Of a stretch of DNA of 64,000 nucleotides, positions 4,712-49,244 are shown in pieces. Where the stretch lies: NCBI GenBank assembly GCA_030697165.1, contig JAUYQQ010000022.1, positions 372,001-436,000 of the forward strand. Reading direction: 5' to 3'. The position numbers were made by a program, and so were the translations under genes. The notes beneath the pieces were generated by a model. The model saw nothing but the letters and a program-made list of their open reading frames with translations, was not told the origin of the DNA and ran no database searches. Within the stretch, counting starts at the first letter, position 1, and the number at the start of each line of letters is the position of its first letter. The DNA comes from Acidobacteriota bacterium (GTDB lineage: Bacteria; Acidobacteriota; Vicinamibacteria; Vicinamibacterales; UBA2999).

Positions 4712-6100
4712 CTACCCAGGCTTGACGATGAGGGTCCCCTTCATGCCGGCCTGGTAGTGCCCTGCGAAGGTGCACACAAATGGGTAGTCCCCTGGCGTCT
4801 CGGGGACGGTGAAGGTCACCTGCACCTGTTCGCCGGGACCGGCGAGCGCCGTCCTGGCGATCACACTCGTCATCATCGCCGGCGCAATGAAGTCGGTCTC
4901 CCGAAACGGGGCGCCTTCCTTCAGCAGCGCGTCGATGTCGGTCGTGAGCTCGAGCACGACCACGTTGTGCGCCATCGCCACTTTCGGAATGACGCCCTTC
5001 GACACCAGCCGGATCCGGATCTCCTCGCCGGGCTGCGCGGTGATGGTGGTCACGCTGTATTTCATGTCGTCGGTCGCGACGATGTCGATGGTCCGGACCG
5101 GATCGCGCATGGCGTAATGTTCCTCGGCGAGGGCCTTGAGGGTGAGCATCATGCGGCGCTGCATGATGAAGTGGGGTAACTGGAAACCCAGGAGGCTGGC
5201 CGCCGATGCCCAGACGGACCGGTCCCGGGTGCCCATCTGCGCTCGAATGATCAACCGAGTGCGTTCCTCCGAGATCGGGTGCAACACGAACGCGGCCCTG
5301 TTCTCGAGCACCAACGCGCGTTCCGGCGTGAGGTCACCGACCTTCCAGGCGATCTCGCCGAGGAGGCCGCCGAGGTAGCCGGGCGGGGTCGCGCGGACCA
5401 CGTCTCCCACCTGCAGCGTCTGCCATTCAGGCCGCACGTCTCGGACGTTCCGGATGCCGAGGCCGGCCGCTCGCTCGAGCCAGTCGTAGCTGTAGAACCC
5501 GGCGCGATCCTGGCCCAGCTGGACCAGCCAGACCCAGACGTCCTCAGCCGGTGCGTCAATGGTGACGGCGTGCTGGACTTCGAGCGCGGGATCGCGCGGC
5601 TCGGCATCGCCGGGCAGGGACATGGCGAGTTCCGCGGGCGTGCTGCCCCACGTGCGGTGCGCCGGATAGGTGAACGCGCCGACGCCGATATACCCGACCA
5701 GCGTGAATCCAGCGGTGAGCGCGGCGAGGTGCCAGATGCGGCGATGCGACGGGTGGGACGGCCATCCGGCGTAGGCGCCCCACAGGCCGATCGGCAAGAG
5801 CGCCACATCACACACGGCCCCGAACCACAGCCGCGGATCGCCCAGGACGTAGATGGCGACCAGCGACCAGGCGGAGGCAACGACCAGCAGCGGGCTGATC
5901 GCGCGGTCCAGCGGTCGCACGCCCAGCAGGCCCAGGCCGGCCGCGACAAAGCCGACCATGCTGACGCTGTAGAGGGCAGCCGGGAGCAAGTCACCGTCCC
6001 ATGCCGTGTAGGCCAGGGAACCTCGCATCGGCAGTACGGCATGCGACAGGCCATGGGCGATTACCAGCCAACCAAGTATGCGGACGATCGTCAGTGTCAT
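4712..6100 (-). CDS. Membrane domain-SRPBCC-cupredoxin fusion protein
   Basis: A three-part protein of about 462 residues from the ATG at 6100; the extra upstream codons back to 6235 run through a regulatory palindrome and are not used. Residues 1-160 are membrane helices. Residues about 175-330 look like an SRPBCC/START-like domain (VTIDAPAEDVWVWLVQLGQD, then YSYDWLERAAGLGI). The C-terminus from about 345 is a type I copper cupredoxin with ligands visible at H378 (AHNVVVLE), C443, H448 and M453 in CTFAGHYQAGMKG, as in azurin and auracyanin. The gene is divergent from nosZ and shares with it one Crp/Fnr-type box, giving a TACGGT -10 at the class II spacing. A role in electron or copper delivery during anaerobic growth is inferred. 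Confidence 0.8.
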   Translation of the reverse strand: MTLTIVRILGWLVIAHGLSHAVLPMRGSLAYTAWDGDLLPAALYSVSMVGFVAAGLGLLGVRPLDRAISPLLVVASAWSLVAIYVLGDPRLWFGAVCDVALLPIGLWGAYAGWPSHPSHRRIWHLAALTAGFTLVGYIGVGAFTYPAHRTWGSTPAELAMSLPGDAEPRDPALEVQHAVTIDAPAEDVWVWLVQLGQDRAGFYSYDWLERAAGLGIRNVRDVRPEWQTLQVGDVVRATPPGYLGGLLGEIAWKVGDLTPERALVLENRAAFVLHPISEERTRLIIRAQMGTRDRSVWASAASLLGFQLPHFIMQRRMMLTLKALAEEHYAMRDPVRTIDIVATDDMKYSVTTITAQPGEEIRIRLVSKGVIPKVAMAHNVVVLELTTDIDALLKEGAPFRETDFIAPAMMTSVIARTALAGPGEQVQVTFTVPETPGDYPFVCTFAGHYQAGMKGTLIVKPG

Positions 6101-6181
6101 CGTGAGCTCCTGTCGAAATCTGGGGCGGCAGCCGTATTGCCGTCCCGACACCTCACCGTAGCCGAGCCGTCCGAGGCGGCG

Positions 6182-6197
6182 TATGACACGCGTCATA
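6182..6197. promoter_or_regulatory. Crp/Fnr-type box A, divergent nosZ / cupredoxin promoter
   Basis: TATGAC-ACGC-GTCATA: two 6-bp inverted half-sites with a 4-bp spacer. Its centre (6189.5) lies 29.5 bp from AATACT at 6219-6224 towards nosZ and 29.5 bp from TACGGT (minus strand, 6160-6155) towards the cupredoxin fusion. That is the geometry of a class II activator site (centre at -41.5) in both directions. It is one of five near-identical boxes in the window. Confidence 0.8.
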
Positions 6198-6203
6198 GGC
6201 GCG

Positions 6204-6221
6204 ATTCCGCCGTGGCGGAAT
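6204..6221. repeat. Inverted repeat overlapping the nosZ -10 region
   Basis: ATTCCGCC-GT-GGCGGAAT, a perfect 8-bp inverted repeat with a 2-bp centre, located between box A and the predicted nosZ -10 and touching the latter. It could be a second operator or a short hairpin. No similar repeat is seen at the other four boxes, so it may give nosZ its own extra control. Confidence 0.4.
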
Positions 6222-6261: not shown

Positions 6262-8265
6262 ATGAAGAGAATACTGATCGTAGTGGTGCCGCTCGTGCTG
6301 GTATTGGCGGCAACGATCGGCGCGTGCGGGCCCCGTTTGACCAGCGGTGGGCCCGCCGGGCTGCTCGAGCTTGCGCAGTCGCGGGGCCTCAGTCCCGAGG
6401 ACGCCGGCCGGGCCATCAAGACGTTCGTCCCGCCGGGCGGGCGCGACGAGTACATGCTGTTTGCGTCGGGCGGCCATTCCGGTCAGGTGCACGTCGTGGG
6501 CGTCCCGTCCATGCGGTTGCTGAAGACCATTGCCGTCTTCACCCCCGAGCCGTGGCAGGGCTTCGGCTACGGCGCCGACTGGTCCGAGAGTGCGCTCGGG
6601 GAAGGCAGCGGCAACGGCAACGGCGACGCCCTGCGATGGGGTGACTCCCATCACCCGGCGCTGAGCGAAACCGACGGGAAATACGACGGCCGCTGGCTCT
6701 ACATCAACGATCGCGCGCATGGCCGGATCGGGATGGTGGACCTTGCCGACTTCCGGACCAAGCAGGTCCTGCAGGTGCCCAACCTCCAGACCTCCCACGG
6801 CGGCATCTTCGCGACGCCCGACACCAAGTACGTGCACATCTCCTCGAAGGTGCCGGCCCTGAAGGCGTGGAACGCCAGCAAGGGACAATCGGTGACGCTC
6901 GACGACCATCTCAATCGCTACGCCGACATCTATCGTGGCTACTCCACGTTCGTCGCCGTCGATCCGAAGAGCGGCCGCATGGATCTGGCGAAGAGCTTCC
7001 AGATCGAGCTGCCGCCGTACACGCAGGACCTGGCCGACTCCGGGAAGGGCGCCAGCGACGGCTACGCCTTCATCAACTCGTACAACGTGGAGATGGCCAC
7101 CGGCGGCATCCAGCAGGGCCGGCCGCCCCTCGAGGTCGGCGCGTCGCAGCTCGATTTCGACTACCTGCACATCATCAACTGGCGGAAGGCCGAACAGGTC
7201 ATCGCGGCGGGCAAGTTCACGAGCCTGAATGGCATCCGCGTGATCACGCTCGAAACCGCGGTTGAGGAGGGGCTGCTGCACCTGGCGCCCGAGCCGCGCA
7301 GCCCGCACGGCGTCGACATCGCCCCGAAGGGCGACTACATCACGGTCTCCGGGAAGCTCGATCCGCATGCCACGGTCTACAGCATCGAGCTGATCAAGAA
7401 GGCGATCGAATCGAAGAACTACGAGGGCAAAGATCGCTACGGCATTCCGATCCTCAATTTCGACGCGGTGGTCGCGGGCAAGGTCGAACTGGGCGCCGGT
7501 CCGCTGCACACCCAGTACGACAACCAGGGACACGCCTACACCAGCCTCTATCTCGAGAGCGCCGTGGCGAAGTGGACGCTCGGCGAGCCGTACCACCCGG
7601 CCGACAAGGCCTTCAAGCTGGTGGACAAGGTGTCGGTCCACTACAACATCGGCCATCTCGCCACCACCCAGGGCGACACCATGGACCCCCAGGGCAAGTA
7701 CCTGATCGCCATGAACAAGTGGTCGATCGACCGTCACAGCAACGTCGGGCCGCTGCACCCGCAGAACTTCCAGTTGATCGATATCTCCGGCCCGAAAATG
7801 GAGCTGATCGCCGACATGCCGATTGGTTTCGGCGAGCCGCACTATGCCCAGCTGGTGAAGACCGACACCCTGAAAGGACTGGCGGTCTACGCGCCCGGCA
7901 CCTCGCCGGAAACGATGGCGCGGAGCCCGAACGCGATCGCCACCGAAACCGAGGCCCGGATCGAGCGCCGTCCCGGGGTCGTGGAAGTCTGGATGAACGT
8001 GGTCCGCAGCCACTTCACACCGGACATCGTGACCGCGAAGGTCGGCGACAAGGTGATCATCCATCTCACCAACACCGAACAGACGGCCGACGCCACGCAC
8101 GGCTTCGCCGTGCCGACCAAGAACGTGATCGTCAGCCTCGACCCGGGAGAATCGACGACGGTGGAGTTTGTCGCCGATAAGGCGGGCTCCTACAGCTTCT
8201 ACTGCACCGAGTTCTGTTCGGCGCTGCACCTGGAGATGCAGGGCTGGCTCATCGTCGAGAAGTAA
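6262..8265 (+). CDS. nosZ: Clade II nitrous-oxide reductase
   Basis: Reduces N2O to N2 in the last step of denitrification. The 667-residue protein starts with a Sec lipoprotein signal (lipobox ATIGAC) and not a Tat signal, and its CuZ-domain motif is GDSHHPALSETDGKYDGRW, both features of clade II (atypical) NosZ. The N-terminal part is the seven-bladed propeller with histidine ligands of the CuZ cluster; the C-terminal cupredoxin carries CuA ligands H613, C648, C652, H656 and M659 in YCTEFCSALHLEM. A good ribosome site (GGAGG) precedes the ATG. It heads the nos cluster and is preceded by Crp/Fnr box A. nosR and nosX are absent, as expected for clade II clusters. Confidence 0.96.
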   Translation: MKRILIVVVPLVLVLAATIGACGPRLTSGGPAGLLELAQSRGLSPEDAGRAIKTFVPPGGRDEYMLFASGGHSGQVHVVGVPSMRLLKTIAVFTPEPWQGFGYGADWSESALGEGSGNGNGDALRWGDSHHPALSETDGKYDGRWLYINDRAHGRIGMVDLADFRTKQVLQVPNLQTSHGGIFATPDTKYVHISSKVPALKAWNASKGQSVTLDDHLNRYADIYRGYSTFVAVDPKSGRMDLAKSFQIELPPYTQDLADSGKGASDGYAFINSYNVEMATGGIQQGRPPLEVGASQLDFDYLHIINWRKAEQVIAAGKFTSLNGIRVITLETAVEEGLLHLAPEPRSPHGVDIAPKGDYITVSGKLDPHATVYSIELIKKAIESKNYEGKDRYGIPILNFDAVVAGKVELGAGPLHTQYDNQGHAYTSLYLESAVAKWTLGEPYHPADKAFKLVDKVSVHYNIGHLATTQGDTMDPQGKYLIAMNKWSIDRHSNVGPLHPQNFQLIDISGPKMELIADMPIGFGEPHYAQLVKTDTLKGLAVYAPGTSPETMARSPNAIATETEARIERRPGVVEVWMNVVRSHFTPDIVTAKVGDKVIIHLTNTEQTADATHGFAVPTKNVIVSLDPGESTTVEFVADKAGSYSFYCTEFCSALHLEMQGWLIVEK

Positions 8266-8286: not shown

Positions 8287-8733
8287 ATGTCGACTCGAAC
8301 CCTTGTCATCGCCGCCTTCGCGCTGCTGTCAGCGGCCTGCAGCGCGATTGCGGCTGGTCCCCCGGAGATCGTGGTGGACACCACCGCCTGCAGCCACTGC
8401 GGCATGTTGGTCAGCGAGCCCATCTACGCCGCGGCGTACCAGGCACAGGGCCAGCCACCGCGGGTGTTCGATGACATCGGGTGCCTGCTCGAGGCCCTTC
8501 GCGGTGAAGCCACAGTTCCGGCCGAGGTCTGGCTGCAGGAGGCCGGCGGAGCCGGATGGCTCGACGCCGACACGGCGATCTTCGTTGCGTCCACGCGCAT
8601 CCCCACCCCGATGAGCGGCGGTGTGCTCGCCTACGCCGCGGCCGCGGCGGCGGAGACCGCGGCCACGGCGCATGGCGGGCAAATGCTGCGATCGTGGCAG
8701 GAAGTCCGGACCTGGAAAGGAGAGGCGAAATGA
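8287..8733 (+). CDS. nosL: NosL-like copper chaperone lipoprotein
   Basis: A 148-residue lipoprotein with lipobox LLSAAC and then the copper-binding segment ACSHCGMLVSE, followed by FDDIGCLLEAL, both conserved in NosL. NosL delivers Cu(I) to apo-NosZ for CuA/CuZ assembly at the membrane or periplasmic face. The gene lies 21 bp after nosZ, and its stop overlaps the start of the next gene by 4 bp (ATGA), which supports one operon. The C-terminal part is alanine-rich and less conserved. The position right behind nosZ differs from the usual end-of-cluster place but the motifs are clear. Confidence 0.88.
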   Translation: MSTRTLVIAAFALLSAACSAIAAGPPEIVVDTTACSHCGMLVSEPIYAAAYQAQGQPPRVFDDIGCLLEALRGEATVPAEVWLQEAGGAGWLDADTAIFVASTRIPTPMSGGVLAYAAAAAAETAATAHGGQMLRSWQEVRTWKGEAK

Positions 8734-10559
8734 CGCGCGCACGGGTCGCCCGCGTGGCAGCCGGAGTGCTCGCGGCGGCGCTGGTGGCGCTAAGCGCCCA
8801 GCTGCCGCTCTGGAGCATGACGATGAGGGCGCCGCAATATCCGCGCGGCCTGCATCTGTATGCCTACGGCACGGCGCTCAGCGGAGACGTCCACGAAATC
8901 AACATCCTGAATCACTACATCGGCATGCCGCCGATCGAGGCGCCGGCGCTCGAAACGGCGCTGTTCCCGTTCGGCATCGCCGCCCTAGTCGTGATTTGCC
9001 TGCTGTCGCCGCTCCACCAGTGGCTGCGCCGGCTCGCGATCGCCGCCACGGCGGCGGCGCCGGTGATGATGCTGGTGGACCTGCAATGGCGGCTGTACTC
9101 CTTCGGCCACAGTCTCAATCCGAAAGCGCCCATTCGTCTCGAGCCGTTCACGCCCCTGGTCATCGGTGAAACGACGATGGGCAACTTCGTCTCCACGGGC
9201 ATGGTGTCCTGGGGATTCGGCTGCATCGTCGCGGCGGGGCTGGTGCTGGTGGTGGGCGCCCGGTTCGGCGACCGGTGGGCGCGGCCCGCGGCGCCGGTGC
9301 GACTCGCTCCGGCGATCGCCGCGCTGTTCGTGCTGGTGTTCGCGGTTCCCGTGGCGCGGGCCGCCGACGTGCCTGCCCACGTCCTGCAGGCCAGGATTGA
9401 TGCCGCGCCGCCGGGGAGCACGCTCATTGTCGCGGCGGCCGTTTATCGCGGTCCGATTGTCGTGCGCGGGCCGCTGAGCTTGATCGGGGAACCCGGCGCA
9501 ACCATCGACGGCGGCGGCCGCGGCAGCGTGGTGACCATTTCCGGCAGCGACGTGGTGTTTCGCGGCTTTACGATTCGCAACAGCGGCCGCGCAGTCACCG
9601 AGGAGGCCGCCGGCCTCAAGGTCACGGGTAACGGTCACCGGATCGAGTCGAACGAGGTGGTCGACGTCTACTTCGGGATCCACATTGGCGACGGCGCCCG
9701 GGTCGTCATCGATGGCAACCGCATTCGGCCCGGCAAGCACTACGGCGCGCGCCCCGGCCACGCGATCAACGCCTAGCAGCTGCGCGACAGCCGCATCAAC
9801 GGCAATTGGGTCGCCGACGCCCGCGATGGGATCTATCTCTCGTTCACCGAGCGCGTGGCGGTGACCGAGAACGTCGTCACCGACTGCCGCTACGGGCTGC
9901 ACTCGATGTATTCGCACGACGCGCGCTTCGAGAACAATGAGGTCACCAGGAATCTGCTGGGAGCCGCGCTGATGATGTCGGACCGCCTGGTGTTGAAGGG
10001 CAACCGGATCCGCCACCACCGGGAAGGCGTCGCCGCCTACGGCATCCTGCTCAAGGACATCGGCGACCTGGTCGCGGAGGACAACGAGATCACCTCGAAC
10101 CGGATCGGCATCTATGCCGAATCGGTGCCGTCCGACCCGCGGCGCGAAGCCGTCTTCAGCGGCAATGTGATTGCCGGCAACGAAGTGGGACTGGCGCTGC
10201 AGAGCACCGCGCGGTTGACGCTGACGGGCAACCGCATTGCCGAGAATCTCTCGGACGTGCGCGCGCTCGGCCGCACCCTGGCGTCGGGCATGCGCTGGTC
10301 GCGCGAGGGCCGCGGCAACTCCTGGGGCCAGTACCGCGGCTACGACGCCGACGGCGACGGCATCGGCGACGTCTCCCACCGCGTCGAGGCGGCAATCGAC
10401 GCGCTGGTCCAGCGCAATCCCTTGATCCAGGCCTTCTTGTACACGCCGGCGCACCTGGCCCTCGAAGCGGCCGCGCGCATGTTTCCGCTCTTTCGCCAGC
10501 CGCCGCTGCTGGTCGACGATCGGCCGTTGATGTCGTTTGCCGCGGGAGGCCGCCGATGA
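8730..10559 (+). pseudogene. nosD: Membrane-domain NosD fusion interrupted by in-frame TAG
   Basis: One continuous reading frame of about 610 codons broken only by TAG at 9774-9776. Residues 1-215 contain four or more membrane helices with GDVHEINILNHYIGMPPIE; the rest is the periplasmic right-handed parallel beta-helix of NosD with CASH-type repeats (for example RIESNEVVDVYFGIHIGD before, and DCRYGLHSMYSHDARFENN after the stop). NosD works with the NosFY transporter in CuZ maturation. Sequence on both sides of the stop aligns with NosD without loss, so a single base change, for example from TGG or CAG, is the simplest cause. Neighbouring genes use TAG as a normal stop. It overlaps nosL and the next gene by 4 bp each. 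It is either a recent nonsense mutation or a sequencing error. Confidence 0.82.
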
Positions 10560-12205
10560 TCGAGATTCGGAACGTCACGAAACGATACGGCCGGCGGGTG
10601 GCGCTGGCCGAGGTGTCGCTGACGCTCGGTGCGGGAGAAGTGACGCTGCTGCTCGGCGCGAACGGCGCCGGGAAATCGACGTTGCTCCGGTGCCTGCTCG
10701 GGATCACCGACTACGAGGGCGCGATCGCGGTCGACGGTCTCGATCCCCTCGCCGACGGCTGCGCGGTCCGTTCGGCGATCGGCTACATGCCGCAGAGCGG
10801 GGGTCTGCACGGCGACCTCTCGGTTCGCCAAACGATGGCGTTCTACGCGCGGATCCGCCAGTCGTCGGGCGATCGCGGTGCGACGCTGCTGCAAGAAGCG
10901 GGGCTCGGACCGCATCTCGACACGCTGGTCGGTGAGCTGTCAGGCGGCATGCGTCAGCGGCTCGGCTTCGCACTCGCGCTGCTGCCCGATCCCAGCATTC
11001 TGGTCCTCGATGAGCCGAGCGCCAGCCTCGACGTCGCCAGCCGGCGGTGGCTGGCCGAGCGGCTGCGCGCGGCCGCCGGCGAGGGCCGAACCGTCATCGT
11101 TTCGACGCACGGCGGCCAGGAGCTGCTCGATGCCGGTGACCGCACGATCACGCTCGAAGCGGGCCGCGTCGTGGAGGCGCCGGCCGCAGCCGAACATGGC
11201 GGCGCCGCACCCGCGGCTTCGACCGCCCTCGCGGCAAGGGCAACGGCGACGGCGGGCCACGGCTGGCGGCACAGGGCGGCACGCATGCTCCCCATCGCCG
11301 GCAAGGAAGTGCGGGACGGGCTCACCAACCGCTGGCTGATCGGGTACTCGGTCCTGCTCGGCGGGCTCGGCCTGGCCGCGATCGCCACTGGCCTCGACAG
11401 CGCCTCGGGCCTGGCGATCCAGGCGTTTGGCCGCACCACGGCAACCCTGATGAACTTGTGCCTCCTCCTGTCGCCTCTGGTGGCGGTGGTCATGGGGGCG
11501 GCGTTGATCGCGGGTGAGCAGGAGCGCGGCACGCTCGAGCACCTGCTGGCGCAGCCGCTGACCAGGACCGAGCTGTTGGTGGGCAAGCATCTTGGCTTGC
11601 TCGCGGCGCTGACCGCCGCCACCGTCGCGGGCTTCGTTCCGGCCGGGCTGGCCATTGTCCTGGCGGCAGGCCCCACGGTGCTTGGGCACTATCTGCTGTT
11701 TCCCACCATCGCGGCGCTGGCCGGCGCCGCCATGGCGGCGGTGGGCCTGCTGATCTCCGTCGCCAGCCGCTCGGCGGTACACGCGCAGGGAACGGCGATC
11801 TTCACGTGGTTTGCATTCGTGTTGCTGTACGACCTGGTGCTCATGGGTTCGCTCGCCGTGAGCGGAATGCCGGCACCCTGGCTCGCGGCGGCGCTGGTCG
11901 GCAACCCGGTCGATGCCGCGAGGGTCCTTGGGGTCCTGGCGCTCGAACCGGATCTGTACTTACTTGGCCCGGCCGGCGCTTTTCTCACGGCGACGCTGTC
12001 TCCGGCAGGAACCGCCAGCCTGCTGATCGGAACGCTGATTATGTGGGGGGTGGTGCCGGTCTGCGCCGCGGCGATGAAGTTTTCAATTCGGAGGAGGAAG
12101 GGTTCACATGCGGAAAACAGAGTGGCTATTGCTGCTATCAACGGCCGTGCTGGTTGCGGCGATCGCGTGCACGTCGAAGGAGGAATCGCCGGCGTCGGGA
12201 ACTAG
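10556..12205 (+). CDS. nosF: Fused NosF-NosY ABC transporter (ATPase plus permease)
   Basis: Residues 1-210 are an ABC ATPase with Walker A GANGAGKST, signature LSGGMRQRLG, Walker B ILVLDEPSASLD and switch histidine VSTHGGQEL. After an alanine-rich linker, residues from about 245 form an ABC-2-type six-helix permease typical of NosY (IAGEQERGTLEHLLAQPLTRTELLVGK). In most nos clusters nosF and nosY are separate genes; here they are one 549-residue polypeptide. With NosD it supplies sulfur or another component for the CuZ centre. The last 33 codons overlap the start of the cytochrome gene in another frame, so the true C-terminus is probably functionally short. ATGA overlap with nosD indicates coupling. 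Confidence 0.9.
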   Translation: MIEIRNVTKRYGRRVALAEVSLTLGAGEVTLLLGANGAGKSTLLRCLLGITDYEGAIAVDGLDPLADGCAVRSAIGYMPQSGGLHGDLSVRQTMAFYARIRQSSGDRGATLLQEAGLGPHLDTLVGELSGGMRQRLGFALALLPDPSILVLDEPSASLDVASRRWLAERLRAAAGEGRTVIVSTHGGQELLDAGDRTITLEAGRVVEAPAAAEHGGAAPAASTALAARATATAGHGWRHRAARMLPIAGKEVRDGLTNRWLIGYSVLLGGLGLAAIATGLDSASGLAIQAFGRTTATLMNLCLLLSPLVAVVMGAALIAGEQERGTLEHLLAQPLTRTELLVGKHLGLLAALTAATVAGFVPAGLAIVLAAGPTVLGHYLLFPTIAALAGAAMAAVGLLISVASRSAVHAQGTAIFTWFAFVLLYDLVLMGSLAVSGMPAPWLAAALVGNPVDAARVLGVLALEPDLYLLGPAGAFLTATLSPAGTASLLIGTLIMWGVVPVCAAAMKFSIRRRKGSHAENRVAIAAINGRAGCGDRVHVEGGIAGVGN

Positions 12206-12527
12206 TGCCGGCGCGGGGTCGTCGGCGAGTTCAGCTTCGGGGGCGGCCAAACCCGGGCGCGGCCGCGAGCTCTACAAGGCCAACTGCGTCGCCTGTCACG
12301 GCGAGAGCGGCAAAGGTGACGGTCCGGGCGCCGGCGTCCTGAAGCCGCCGCCGCGTGACCACACCGACCGTGCCTACATGAGCACGCTGCCGGATCAGGA
12401 AGTCGCCGAGATCATCAGGGTTGGCGGCGCGATCAATGGCAAGCCGGGCATGCCGAGTCACCCGCAGATCAGTGGCGATGACCTGGCCGCGCTGGTCGCG
12501 TATGTGCGGTCACTGAGCCAGCCCTGA
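12108..12527 (+). CDS. Class I c-type cytochrome lipoprotein of the nos cluster
   Basis: A 139-residue membrane-anchored monohaem cytochrome. It has a lipobox ending IAC near residue 21, a Ser/Ala-rich flexible linker, haem-binding CVACH in LYKANCVACHGESGKGDGPG, and the distal methionine in GKPGMPSHPQISGDD. It starts 98 bp inside the 3' end of the fused transporter gene, behind GGAGG. Lipoprotein cytochromes in clade II clusters are thought to pass electrons to the CuA site of NosZ, and that is the likely role here at the periplasmic face of the membrane. Confidence 0.9.
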   Translation: MRKTEWLLLLSTAVLVAAIACTSKEESPASGTSAGAGSSASSASGAAKPGRGRELYKANCVACHGESGKGDGPGAGVLKPPPRDHTDRAYMSTLPDQEVAEIIRVGGAINGKPGMPSHPQISGDDLAALVAYVRSLSQP

Positions 12528-12559: not shown

Positions 12560-13855
12560 ATGCCGGCGTCGGCGCTGCCTCTCGCCTACTACCTCGTCGC
12601 GCACGCCGGCTTCGGTGCTGCGTTGCTCGTCCTGGTGATCGACCCCGGCCTTCCCGGCACGTCGTTCTACCAGCCGCGGGTCGTCGCGCTCGTGCACCTG
12701 CTCACGCTGGCCTGGTTGACCGGTTCGATCCTCGGGTCGTTGTACATCGTCGGCCCGCTGGCGCTGCGGGTGCCGATGCCTGCGGTGAAGGCCGACTGGA
12801 TCGCGTTCGCCTCGTTCGTGCTCGGCGCCAGCGGCATGGTCTCGCATTTCTGGATCAACACCTACGACGGCATGGTGTGGTCGGCGCTGTTGGTGTCCGG
12901 CGCCGTGGCGTGGGTGGGCGGTCGCGTGATGCGGGGCCTGCCCGGCTCCAGCGTTCAGTGGGGCGTGCGCCTGCATGTCGCGCTGGCGTTCTTCAACATC
13001 CTTGCGGCCGCCGGGTTGGGGATCCTGATCGGCCTCGATCGCTCACGCGGGTTCCTCGTGGTGTCGCCGCTCGCGACGATGTTCGCCCACGCCCATATTG
13101 CGGCGGTCGGCTGGGTGACGATGCTGGTGATCGGCCTGTCGTATCGCTTGATCCCCATGATGCTGCCCGCGGCCATGCCGGCGGGCGGATCGCTGGCGCT
13201 CAGCGCGATCCTGCTGCAAGGCGGGCTGGTGGTGCTGACCGTGCGCCTGCTGGCGGACTCGGAAGGCCTCTGGCTCGGCGCGGTGATGATGGTTGGCGGC
13301 GTGGTGTCCTTCATGGCCCACGTCCGTCGAATGCTCGGGCGCCGCCTGCCGCGCCCGCCGGCCCTGCCGGCGCGCGACTGGTCAACGTGGCAGGTACAGA
13401 TCGCGTTTGGGTGGCTCCTCGTGACGATCGCGATGGGCCTGGCGCTCTGCATCCAGGCGCCCTACGAAGACCGCCTGTCCTTGATGTGGATGTACGGCGT
13501 CACCGGCCTGATTGGCTTCCTGGCGCAGATGGTCGTGGGCATGCAGGGCCGTCTGGTGCCGATGTACGCCTGGTACCGCGCCTATGCCGTCACGGGAACG
13601 CCGCCGTCGCGCGCGGCCAACACCCTGCCGTCCCCGGCCTTCGCACGGGCGATCGTGTGGTGCTGGGCGGCCGCGGTTCCACTGCTCGTGTGGGGGTTAC
13701 CCCAGGCTGAGCGACCGGCCATCCGGGCCGGTGCGCTGGTGCTGCTGGCTGGCGTCGGCCTCGGCGGAACCTACCTGGTGTACATGGTGCGCCTGGCCCG
13801 CGAGCCCGTGACTCGGCCACGCCGGGACAGCTGTCCGGCGGTCGAGATCCGCTAG
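12560..13855 (+). CDS. Haem-copper oxidase subunit I-like membrane protein
   Basis: A 431-residue protein with about 12 membrane helices. Histidines occur in helix contexts resembling cytochrome oxidase/NO reductase subunit I: ALVHLLTLAWLTGSILG, VSHFWIN, RLHVALAFFN and FAHAHIAAVGWVTM. The tyrosine-histidine crosslink pattern of true oxidases is not evident, so it may be a haem-binding relative and not an active oxidase. Such proteins often accompany nor and nos genes, where electron transfer from quinol or a sensing role has been suggested. It follows the cytochrome gene by 32 bp and precedes the Crp/Fnr gene by 9 bp, so it belongs to the same transcription unit. The exact function is unknown. 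Confidence 0.7.
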   Translation: MPASALPLAYYLVAHAGFGAALLVLVIDPGLPGTSFYQPRVVALVHLLTLAWLTGSILGSLYIVGPLALRVPMPAVKADWIAFASFVLGASGMVSHFWINTYDGMVWSALLVSGAVAWVGGRVMRGLPGSSVQWGVRLHVALAFFNILAAAGLGILIGLDRSRGFLVVSPLATMFAHAHIAAVGWVTMLVIGLSYRLIPMMLPAAMPAGGSLALSAILLQGGLVVLTVRLLADSEGLWLGAVMMVGGVVSFMAHVRRMLGRRLPRPPALPARDWSTWQVQIAFGWLLVTIAMGLALCIQAPYEDRLSLMWMYGVTGLIGFLAQMVVGMQGRLVPMYAWYRAYAVTGTPPSRAANTLPSPAFARAIVWCWAAAVPLLVWGLPQAERPAIRAGALVLLAGVGLGGTYLVYMVRLAREPVTRPRRDSCPAVEIR

Positions 13856-13864
13856 ACTGTCTCC

Positions 13865-14554
13865 GTGCCCGTACCGGACGATGAGCTGCTGCGCCGCCTG
13901 CCGTTGTTTCGCCGCGTCTCGGCGCCGTTGCGGGCCCGCGTCGCCGAAGTGGCGCGGCTGAAATCGTATGGGAAGGGCGAACTGATCTTTGCCGAGGACG
14001 ATCCCTCCGACGCGTTCATCGTGATCGTGTCGGGCCGGGTCAAAGTGTTCAAGTCGACGCCGACCGGCAAGGAGATTATTCTCGAGATCTTCGGTGATGG
14101 CGATCCGCTCGGTGCCGTCGCGCTCTACGAGGGCGCCCCGTTCATGGCCTCGGCGCTCAGCCTCGAGCCGACGGCGGTGATCAGCATCGAACAGGCGGCA
14201 TTCTTCCGGCTGCTGGAGGCGGAGCCGGTCCTGGTCCGCGGCCTGCTCTCCGGCCTCACGCTGCGGCTCGCCGAACTGACCCGACGGCTGGCCGAATTGA
14301 CCGGAGCCCGCGTCGAAACGCGCTTTGCCCGGCTCTTCCTCAAGTTGAGCGACCAGATTGGCCGCCCCGAGCGCGGCGGCGTGTTCGTGCCGATGTCGCT
14401 GTCGCGGCAGGAGCTGGCCGATCTGGCCGGCACCACGATCGAAACCGCGATTCGCATCATGAGCCGGTGGCAGAAAGACAACGTCTTGCACACCGAAAAG
14501 GACGGGTTCGTGGTGGTGGATCGGCCGGCGCTCGACGAGCTGGCCGCCAGCTGA
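13865..14554 (+). CDS. Crp/Fnr-family transcription regulator (Dnr-like)
   Basis: A 229-residue regulator with GTG start. Residues 10-125 form the cyclic-nucleotide-type beta roll (GKGELIFAEDDPSDAFIVIVSGRVKVF), then a long dimerisation helix, and a C-terminal winged helix with SLSRQELADLAGTTIETAIR, the DNA-reading helix. It has no cysteine cluster, so it is not an iron-sulfur FNR; it resembles the DNR/NnrR group, which respond to NO through haem, although haem ligands cannot be assigned here. Being the last gene of the nos cluster, it is the best candidate for the protein that binds the five TATGAC-N4-GTCATA boxes in this window. That link is inference. Confidence 0.88.
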   Translation: MPVPDDELLRRLPLFRRVSAPLRARVAEVARLKSYGKGELIFAEDDPSDAFIVIVSGRVKVFKSTPTGKEIILEIFGDGDPLGAVALYEGAPFMASALSLEPTAVISIEQAAFFRLLEAEPVLVRGLLSGLTLRLAELTRRLAELTGARVETRFARLFLKLSDQIGRPERGGVFVPMSLSRQELADLAGTTIETAIRIMSRWQKDNVLHTEKDGFVVVDRPALDELAAS

Positions 14555-15664: not shown

Positions 15665-17569
15665 TTAGCGATCGAGTCGCCGTTCCGCCTGAAACAGCGT
15701 GTATCCGGACGAGTCGGCTTCGTCGAGCGCCGCTTTGTAGAACCGGCGGAGGGTGTCCGACTGCGCCTCGGCGAGGCGCACGCGGAACTTGTCCGCCTGC
15801 CATAGATCGGGGAGCACGATGACCCGGCCGACGATCAGGACCGCCGTCGGTGGGAGCGGGCCGGGGTAGTCGAGCGTCGCGGTCTGGTCGGGCGCCAGGC
15901 GCGTGTCGCTCGTCTGAGTCCACTCGCCGTTCTCGAACTGCACCTTTCGTGCGATGCGATGCTCGGCAAACGCCAGTGTGGTGCCGGCGCCGTCCTTGAC
16001 GTCGATGCGCATCCAGATCTCGGGCACCGTGTAGGTAGGGAGAAAATGTCCGGCGCCGACGTTGGTCAGCGTCATGCGCGCCGCGGCGCCAGCGGCGCGC
16101 GGGAGGGCGTCGAACGTCCAGCGGACCGCGCGGCGCACGGTGTCGGGATCGTGAATGCCACGAAAGAAGTGGCGACGGTCCGGCATGTGACACGTCTGGC
16201 AGGTGCGACCCTCCCGGGCGGCGCGCGAGTTGCGCCATTCTTCGAGCGTGTTCTGCAGCGTGGTCCCATTCACGGTTGGGGCGGTGCCGGGCGGGAAGTG
16301 GTGGCAACCGGCGCAGAAGTCCGACTGCTCGAAGAACGCCCGCGTTTGGACTTTGCCGTGGCCTGACCGAGAGCCCGACACCAGCGGGAGCAGCGTGCTG
16401 GGCGTTGGCGCCGGCCCGAACACCTGGCCGGCGCGGACATGGCAGGCGGCGCAGGTCACGCTGTCGGCCTGCAAGTAGGCATCTTCCGCCTGTTCGGCAA
16501 GCGGCGCATGGCAGCTCGTACAGTTACCACCGGAGTCGCGCTCGTGCATCTGCGCCCACACACCAGGTCCCATGGCCATTGCATGACGGGAACGTGACCA
16601 GTCGGCGAACTGCAGCGGGTGGCACGTGGCGCAGCTTGGCGAGGCGATGCTGCCGGGCCCGGCTCGCAGCGGCGGCCGCCAGTACGTGGCGGCCGTCGTG
16701 GTGTCGATCGCTCGGTGCGGCCGATCGGGTGGCGGCCGCTGGAGGGACCGCAGGTATGTCACGAGATTCCACAGGTCGGAGCCGCTCCGGGCAGTCGGCG
16801 CATAGGCCGTCATGCTGGTGCCGCTGAACCCCGTGACGATCGATCGGAGCAGGTCTGATTCGGCGCCGCCAGCCTTGAAATTGTGCGGGCGCGTCAGGTC
16901 GGCGGGAGCCTCGCTGAAGCCCCTGGCGTGGCGAAGCGATCGCGCCAGCGGTCCATCGCCGATGCCCTGCGGGCCATGGCAGTCGGCGCATCCCCACGCT
17001 CCGTAAACCTCTGCCCCACGTTGCGCCTCGCCAGACCGGCGCGGCGGCAGCGGCACCGGTGCCGGCGCGCGTTCGTACGTCCACCGCGGAGAGAACGACT
17101 TCACCTTGTGGACGAGGGCGCGGAGGTCGTCGGTGGCGAGAAATGGGAACGGCGGCATCGCGCCGTCGCCACCCGCACCATTCCGGATGACGTGTTCGAG
17201 GTCGCGGTCCGTCGGCAGCGCGTTGAGCGGCGTTGATCGCACCTTGAACTCGGCGCGCGTGAAATCGGCTGGCGGTACCCGGCTGAATGGGGCCGCCCGG
17301 CCTTCGCCCCGCCCGTCCAGTCCATGACAGGAGGCGCAGAAGGTGACATAGAGCTGGTCGCCTCGAGGCGCGCCGGCCACGATGAACTCCCGCGGATCGG
17401 TGTCCGGAAGGCTGATGCCCGGTCGGTATTCACGACTCGCCGGCGACTCGCGTGCCTCGCCGGCGGCGGATGTTACGACGACGGGCGCGGGTGACGGCGG
17501 GCCGGCGGGCGCCGGGGGTGTGCAGCCCGCCAGCAGGAGCACGCTCCAGAGCATGGGGCGAGCGGTCAT
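15665..17569 (-). CDS. Seven-haem c-type cytochrome lipoprotein
   Basis: A 634-residue exported protein with lipobox LLLAGC and seven CxxCH motifs: CASCH, CADCH, CATCH, CTSCH, CAACH, CAGCH and CQTCH. The first two belong to consecutive class I cytochrome domains (to about residue 270); the other five form a multihaem domain resembling cytochrome c554 or NapC-linked families. The C-terminal 170 residues are a beta-rich domain without haem. It likely moves electrons between the membrane and a periplasmic acceptor. Box C lies just upstream; the predicted start of transcription (near 17572) is only a few bases from this ATG, so the message may be leaderless or the internal ATG at 17554 may be used. 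Confidence 0.88.
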   Translation of the reverse strand: MTARPMLWSVLLLAGCTPPAPAGPPSPAPVVVTSAAGEARESPASREYRPGISLPDTDPREFIVAGAPRGDQLYVTFCASCHGLDGRGEGRAAPFSRVPPADFTRAEFKVRSTPLNALPTDRDLEHVIRNGAGGDGAMPPFPFLATDDLRALVHKVKSFSPRWTYERAPAPVPLPPRRSGEAQRGAEVYGAWGCADCHGPQGIGDGPLARSLRHARGFSEAPADLTRPHNFKAGGAESDLLRSIVTGFSGTSMTAYAPTARSGSDLWNLVTYLRSLQRPPPDRPHRAIDTTTAATYWRPPLRAGPGSIASPSCATCHPLQFADWSRSRHAMAMGPGVWAQMHERDSGGNCTSCHAPLAEQAEDAYLQADSVTCAACHVRAGQVFGPAPTPSTLLPLVSGSRSGHGKVQTRAFFEQSDFCAGCHHFPPGTAPTVNGTTLQNTLEEWRNSRAAREGRTCQTCHMPDRRHFFRGIHDPDTVRRAVRWTFDALPRAAGAAARMTLTNVGAGHFLPTYTVPEIWMRIDVKDGAGTTLAFAEHRIARKVQFENGEWTQTSDTRLAPDQTATLDYPGPLPPTAVLIVGRVIVLPDLWQADKFRVRLAEAQSDTLRRFYKAALDEADSSGYTLFQAERRLDR

Positions 17570-17606: not shown

Positions 17607-17622
17607 TATGACGGGCGTCATA
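17607..17622. promoter_or_regulatory. Crp/Fnr-type box C, divergent cytochrome / RNA-NMO promoter
   Basis: TATGAC-GGGC-GTCATA. Centre 17614.5. Towards the plus strand TAGGTT at 17644-17649 lies 29.5 bp away; towards the minus strand TAGACT (17584-17579) lies 30.5 bp away. One box can therefore serve the seven-haem cytochrome and the hairpin RNA plus nitronate monooxygenase as a class II site in both directions. Confidence 0.8.
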
Positions 17623-49228: not shown

Positions 49229-49244
49229 TATGACCGCCGTCATA
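49229..49244. promoter_or_regulatory. Crp/Fnr-type box D, copD-cytochrome promoter
   Basis: TATGAC-CGCC-GTCATA, centre 49236.5. Minus-strand TACGCT (49207-49202) is 29.5 bp from the centre. Predicted transcription start near 49195, one base before the ATG at 49194. Confidence 0.78.

Follow-up and report, generated by a model that had tools for sequence, protein, structure and literature searches.

A membrane-anchored fusion protein with an azurin-like copper domain, encoded divergently from nosZ in an acidobacterium, is a candidate electron donor to NosZ

Introduction

What is an azurin-like copper domain doing at the end of an integral membrane protein whose gene lies back to back with nosZ? 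The locus raising this question comes from a member of the class Vicinamibacteria, and nosZ genes of Acidobacteriota, chiefly of this class, are reported to rank with the nosZ groups that are most abundant in soils (PMC13122619). The CuA centre of NosZ in Paracoccus receives electrons from pseudoazurin or cytochrome c550 (PMC6530538), and in the N2O-reducing acidobacterium Luteitalea pratensis an azurin gene lies upstream of nosZ, with electron transfer or copper delivery suggested as its role (PMC13122619). The occurrence of an azurin gene before nosZ in Acidobacteriota is thus already on record in that source; in the literature we searched, we found no proven electron donor to NosZ from this phylum. 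All positions given below refer to the window, i.e. the whole stretch of 64,000 nucleotides analysed. The gene in question lies within a 571,542-base contig of a 5.39-Mb genome assembled in 23 contigs.

An intact gene encoding a protein of three parts

The following features define the gene and its product.

4712..6100, minus strand: fusion gene, 462 amino acids, comprising a five-helix membrane part, a predicted SRPBCC-fold domain and an azurin-like cupredoxin
5672..6100, minus strand: residues 1-143, five predicted membrane helices (structure model and charge counts)
5099..5671, minus strand: residues 144-334, predicted SRPBCC/START-fold domain (domain model and structure matches)
4715..5098, minus strand: residues 335-462, azurin-like cupredoxin with the ligands H378, C443, H448 and M453 (Pfam and structure matches)
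6107..6111, minus strand: AGGAG ribosome-binding site preceding the ATG at 6100

The reading frame is open throughout from the ATG at 6100. The start chosen by the gene caller, at 6196, was rejected, because its ATG lies inside the palindromic box described below and because the homologues begin near the ATG at 6100. The earlier note on this DNA, which had described one protein with membrane helices, a START-like domain and a type I copper site, is thus borne out by an intact 462-residue frame, five helices and a fold match. In the structure model the helices span residues 2-30, 39-58, 68-86, 89-111 and 117-149, the last one running slightly over the domain border. Three other hydrophobic stretches (295-313, 365-383 and 404-422) were not accepted as helices, since they are located inside the folded domains of the model. 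The numbers of lysines and arginines favour an N-in/C-out orientation in all five proteins compared, i.e. the fusion protein and four homologues (5 v 2, 8 v 3, 9 v 1, 8 v 2 and 4 v 2), and with this predicted topology both the SRPBCC and the copper domain would be periplasmic. A by-eye look for haem-binding histidine pairs in the membrane part covered one motif, HGLSH, the second histidine of which is replaced by asparagine in three of five homologues.

No Pfam or NCBIfam family reached its cut-off in residues 144-334, and in the homologues L017 and L081 Polyketide_cyc2 stayed under the cut-off (E 0.26 and 0.11, respectively). A model of this domain by itself (mean pLDDT 81, pTM 0.81) does, however, point to the SRPBCC/START helix-grip fold. 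Its best match is tomato PYL1 (Z 11.4, the highest value obtained; rmsd 3.9 over 153 residues), and the matching structures are mostly plant PYR/PYL receptors, accompanied by aromatase/cyclases and several entries for which no function is named. The best E returned by Foldseek was 6e-5; the TM-scores were modest (0.3-0.5 of the query), and the rmsd values amounted to at least 5. The helix-grip fold is thus what the domain would have in common with these proteins, at 9-21% identity among the 50 matches listed, whereas its predicted periplasmic location, its attachment to the membrane and its fusion to a copper domain set it apart from them. The model of the full-length protein is weaker than that of the single domain (mean pLDDT 76, pTM 0.56) and is therefore no guide to how the domains are placed relative to each other. 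Of the 34 positions common to at least 11 of 12 homologues, 33 are conserved in the SRPBCC part, the sole exception being Arg268, which is tryptophan in all 12, and so it does not look degenerate. The same domain also occurs, at 44-46% identity over about 180 residues, on plasmids of Haloterrigena (L126) and Gemmatirosa (L125), and thus in haloarchaea and Gemmatimonadota, the proteins concerned being annotated as hypothetical or carrying no annotation.

The C-terminal part matches the plastocyanin/azurin family profile (Pfam Copper-bind, PF00127; 46.8 bits, cut-off 21.2). All four ligands of a type-1 copper centre (His, Cys, His, Met) occupy the positions that the earlier note had assigned to them, and a type-1 copper site is predicted on this basis. 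Auracyanins and azurins are the best solved relatives by sequence, and residues 334-460 of the model match them with Z scores of 18-19; the score against the NCBIfam azurin equivalog TIGR02695 (63.8 bits) is under the cut-off of 105.1, for which reason we call the domain azurin-like. It resembles pseudoazurin, azurin and auracyanin in its fold and its four copper ligands, and differs from them in forming the C-terminal domain of a membrane protein. The lipid-modified azurin of Neisseria (PDB 3ay2, 2n0m) is likewise an azurin-like domain tied to the membrane, there by a lipid anchor (according to the entry name) and here by five membrane helices with an SRPBCC domain. The genome encodes one further Copper-bind protein (L112, contig C9 of the source genome G000), which the protein search did not retrieve as a homologue; its N-terminus is lipoprotein-like, and its plastocyanin-type domain is accompanied by a C-terminal extension. 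Neither half of the fusion has a second close homologue in the same genome.

The fusion has two traceable ancestors

The homologues of the fusion protein are of two kinds. The first is a separate membrane-SRPBCC protein of about 335 amino acids that spans fusion residues about 8-328 and occurs, at 44-54% identity, in four genomes belonging to the family of the source genome (G001, G019, G020 and G023). No nos genes were found in the stretches of 8-20 kb read around these genes. A NosZ match was obtained in 45 of 162 genomes, which include G001 (with the match on another contig) and none of the other three. The second kind is a stand-alone cupredoxin, mostly of 140-190 amino acids, which spans residues about 330-460 and reaches 67% identity over 138 residues, or 70% over a 124-residue core (genome G059). 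In the alignments of the two halves, built from trimmed rows (a full-length alignment in which SRPBCC rows were placed on the cupredoxin was set aside), the SRPBCC domain runs to its natural end at the junction, and the cupredoxin begins there as in its mature form.

No second protein spanning both halves was found among 60 relatives, 162 genomes of the order, 193 genomes of the class and a 396-genome sample of the phylum, these sets being overlapping and each including or surrounding the source genome. For phyla beyond Acidobacteriota, the search comprised two scans: genome contigs were scanned with six exact octapeptides, which reach close relatives only and returned one locus, for a membrane-SRPBCC protein; and 31 plasmid records matched, none of them with a single locus matching more than 80% of the query. 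Viral contigs, scanned with one pattern, gave 19 pattern matches and no relatives. Three candidates for further fusions, in G454 (matching residues 244-460), G099 (289-460) and G067 (312-460), were rejected because each proved to be a stand-alone cupredoxin of 149-159 amino acids with a signal-like N-terminus.

As the halves are separate elsewhere and no other full-length homologue was found, we conclude that a nos-cluster azurin was fused, at a domain boundary, to a membrane-SRPBCC protein. The fusion is known from one assembly only, and both ancestors of this new domain architecture can be traced. The earlier note had named a wide occurrence of close homologues without nos genes as an observation that would speak against its reading. 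For the full-length protein nothing of the sort was encountered; for the halves this is indeed the situation, as none of the four membrane-SRPBCC homologues and only 11 of 36 cupredoxins have a nos or NirK-like neighbour.

The nos cluster and the palindrome that it shares with the fusion gene

On the other side of the intergenic region, the following features were recognized.

6182..6197: perfect palindrome TATGACACGCGTCATA (TATGAC-N4-GTCATA), Crp/Fnr-like, between the fusion gene and nosZ
6262..8265, plus strand: nosZ, clade II (Sec-dependent), lipobox IGAC (TIGR04246, 773.8 bits, cut-off 625)
8287..8733, plus strand: nosL (Pfam NosL)
8730..10559, plus strand: nosD-like gene with an N-terminal extension and an in-frame stop
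10556..12205, plus strand: ABC ATPase-permease fusion (NosF-NosY-like)
12108..12527, plus strand: c-type cytochrome, lipobox AIAC
12560..13855, plus strand: membrane protein, sub-threshold COX1 match (Pfam COX1, E 0.0029)
13865..14554, plus strand: Crp/Fnr-family regulator, 63% identical to that of the G059 nos cluster

This is a clade II nos cluster, with NosZ scoring over the TIGR04246 cut-off and with NosL and ABC genes alongside; nosD is present, interrupted by a stop after residue 348, and its counterpart in G059 is a single 609-residue frame. The interruption may be real decay or a sequencing error, and on account of it the whole cluster may be decaying. The NosZ protein, predicted from its lipobox to be a lipoprotein, shares 85% identity with its counterpart in G059 and 79% with the one in G070, compared with 43-45% for the NosZ proteins of G001, G002 and G008, which belong to the same genus as the source genome; the nos cluster is therefore of a different type from that of its congeners, perhaps having been acquired by horizontal transfer. 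The nosZ match in G070 (L065) contains one in-frame TAG. Homologues of the 12560-13855 membrane protein, at 45-46% identity, are found around nosZ of G002, G157 and G050, and this protein is possibly an unnamed nos-associated haem-copper-like protein.

The claim that the fusion gene and nosZ diverge from a common regulatory site is supported by the perfect palindrome between them, 78 bp before nosZ. With up to two mismatches allowed, the box occurs at six sites in the window against 0.37 expected, four of them perfect; the whole genome contains five perfect boxes (none for a reversed-pattern control). Those other than the one at nosZ are located at 17607, before a c-type cytochrome gene (15665-17569); at 49229 and 49345, both between a CopD-like gene and a CtaA gene (haem A synthesis); and outside the window (L106 at 1501, G000:C10:145944), preceding a gene for a NapH-like polyferredoxin. 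This distribution suggests a small respiratory regulon. In G059 the two perfect boxes stand 78 bp before nosZ and 80 bp before the stand-alone cupredoxin gene, counted from the TGA, and the single one in G070 is about 300 bp before nosZ. At least one site was present in eight of the 12 genomes tested and absent from four. Boxes are also present in G001, G002 and G008, with the other type of nos cluster, and in the stretches read none of these immediately precedes nosZ; the regulon thus extends beyond nos. The box has a TGA-N6-TCA core, which we take to be that of Crp/Fnr sites, and a gene for a Crp/Fnr-family protein closes the nos cluster here, the G059 cluster containing one too; the box is thus a putative Crp/Fnr site, at which this protein would act. 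As judged from sequence, the fusion gene shows the linkage to and predicted co-regulation with nosZ that are looked for in donors to NosZ, and so does its counterpart in G059. A second perfect palindrome, TTCCGCC-GT-GGCGGAA, occupies 6205-6220 on the nosZ side of the box, and G059 differs there.

Relatives of the copper domain in and outside nos clusters

We inferred a tree of 36 cupredoxins, of which seven (including that of the window) are located in nos clusters, four near a NirK-like gene and 25 near neither. Two copies of kept sequences (L066, L086), a fragment at a contig end (L077), products of more than 300 amino acids, loci with no cupredoxin gene called (L087, L096, L097) and weaker hits (e.g. 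G158:C491, G159:C45:58940, G476:C317) were left out; L060 and L063 were added by coordinates, and the start of L094 is doubtful. In this tree, the fused copper domain and the cupredoxin of the G059 nos cluster, a stand-alone, secreted version, are sisters (SH-aLRT 98). The next closest cupredoxins are two in G161 (66%), with neither a nos nor a NirK-like neighbour, in a genome in which we found no NosZ match. Genes of a second azurin clade immediately precede nosZ in G038, G045, G050, G157 and G159. A rough binomial estimate (20 kb per 4.5 Mb) for six nos-linked of 35 is about 1e-8; four of these six come from one genus, and the honest count of the seven nos-linked cases is therefore two clades.

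Each of the five azurins of the second nos-linked clade has a cysteine late in the signal sequence, which constitutes a strict lipobox in two of them but not in the other three; the G059 cupredoxin has no such cysteine. By our own strict pattern, two of the 36 rows fit, and both are nos-linked; L060 and L063 were assessed visually. In L023, L069, L076 and L083, azurin-like cupredoxin genes adjoin, or lie within about 1 kb of, a gene for a NirK-like two-domain copper protein, 'NirK-like' denoting similarity only, as the reference protein reaches 173.6 of the 296.3 bits required by TIGR02376.

A membrane-tethered electron donor to NosZ?

The fusion protein is most likely explained as a membrane-tethered donor, and we consider it probable, though well short of certain, that its copper domain passes electrons to NosZ. 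An ancestor would have had a nos cluster like that of G059, with a separate, secreted azurin-like protein, the mature domain of which lost its signal peptide and became joined to the end of a membrane-SRPBCC protein of the family. The five helices would anchor the product N-in/C-out, with its SRPBCC and copper domains held on the periplasmic side, and a Crp/Fnr-family regulator would turn on the fusion gene and nosZ together from the common palindrome, probably at low oxygen. The type-1 copper would then be reduced by the quinol/cytochrome section of the chain and would in turn reduce the CuA centre of NosZ. Both NosZ (IGAC) and the cytochrome c of the cluster (AIAC) have a lipobox, and a carrier held at the membrane would suit a membrane-held NosZ. 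Of the three roles proposed in the earlier note, electron donation to NosZ fits best and has gained the nos-linked stand-alone version with the same box in G059 and the azurin-like genes directly before nosZ in five further genomes. Against it stand the c-type cytochrome of the cluster, the nosD stop, the restriction to a single genome and the 25 of 36 cupredoxins with neither a NosZ nor a NirK-like neighbour.

The cytochrome may itself be the donor, with the fused azurin serving another periplasmic partner or being a co-regulated side carrier. NosZ-linked cytochrome c lipoproteins have been described in Bacillus azotoformans (PMC3475470), the cytochrome here does carry a lipobox, and the genes of close relatives of the copper domain are also located elsewhere than at nosZ, in four cases near a gene for a NirK-like protein. 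However, the G059 cluster as read includes the cupredoxin but nothing that matches this cytochrome, and it is at nosZ and at the cupredoxin that G059 has its two perfect boxes, so we regard this alternative as unlikely. Even less likely, in our opinion, is a role in copper handling, with the fused cupredoxin delivering or storing copper for the NosZ centres without passing electrons. It would agree with a sub-threshold match to the NCBIfam CopI copper-resistance cuproprotein (35.1 of 280 bits) and with copper delivery being named as a possible role of the azurin/SCO pair before nosZ (PMC13122619), but the intact His-Cys-His-Met site and the closeness to azurin and auracyanin point to electron transfer, and the cluster already has NosL, shown elsewhere to be a copper chaperone for CuZ (PMC6530538).

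The quinone- or lipid-linked redox protein suggested in the earlier note retains the SRPBCC fold as its one piece of backing. Coq10, a START-domain protein, binds ubiquinone, and a periplasmic quinol-binding SRPBCC module would allow a single polypeptide to take up quinol, reduce its own copper and feed NosZ without a cytochrome bc complex; we think this very improbable. The domain may perhaps be only part of the inherited anchor; an anchor alone, a ligand sensor and a quinol-binding site are all possible roles. Similarly improbable is an origin of the fusion in faulty assembly or in an accident that left it without function: its presence in one genome only, the stop in nosD of the same cluster and the Arg268 substitution would be in keeping with it, but the frame runs intact over a clean domain boundary, the genome yields a single match for the whole query, inside a large contig, third-position GC of the three parts (0.83, 0.87 and 0.89) is like that of five neighbouring genes (0.82-0.90), and both the conserved SRPBCC positions and the copper ligands have been retained.

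Comparison with known systems and significance

A membrane-tethered donor would have partial parallels elsewhere. Luteitalea pratensis likewise has an azurin-like gene linked to clade II nosZ in Acidobacteriota, but there the azurin is a separate gene accompanied by an SCO gene (PMC13122619), whereas here it is fused to a membrane-SRPBCC protein and divergent from nosZ; if G038 is of the L. pratensis type, the two azurins also belong to different clades. NirK of Propionibacterium acnes combines a membrane part and a cupredoxin in one chain, also in the context of denitrification (PMC4770552), with the difference that the chain there includes the enzyme itself, while here it comprises the carrier only, with an SRPBCC domain in between. 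No published account of an integral-membrane azurin fusion was found in the literature searched, and one may exist elsewhere; what is new here is that a nos-linked azurin-like carrier has been made an integral membrane protein through fusion. An azurin that has given up its signal peptide, become tied to the membrane and been placed beside the regulatory site of nosZ offers natural evidence that azurin and NosZ cooperate at the membrane, and the fusion protein and NosZ constitute a defined pair with which such cooperation may be tested.
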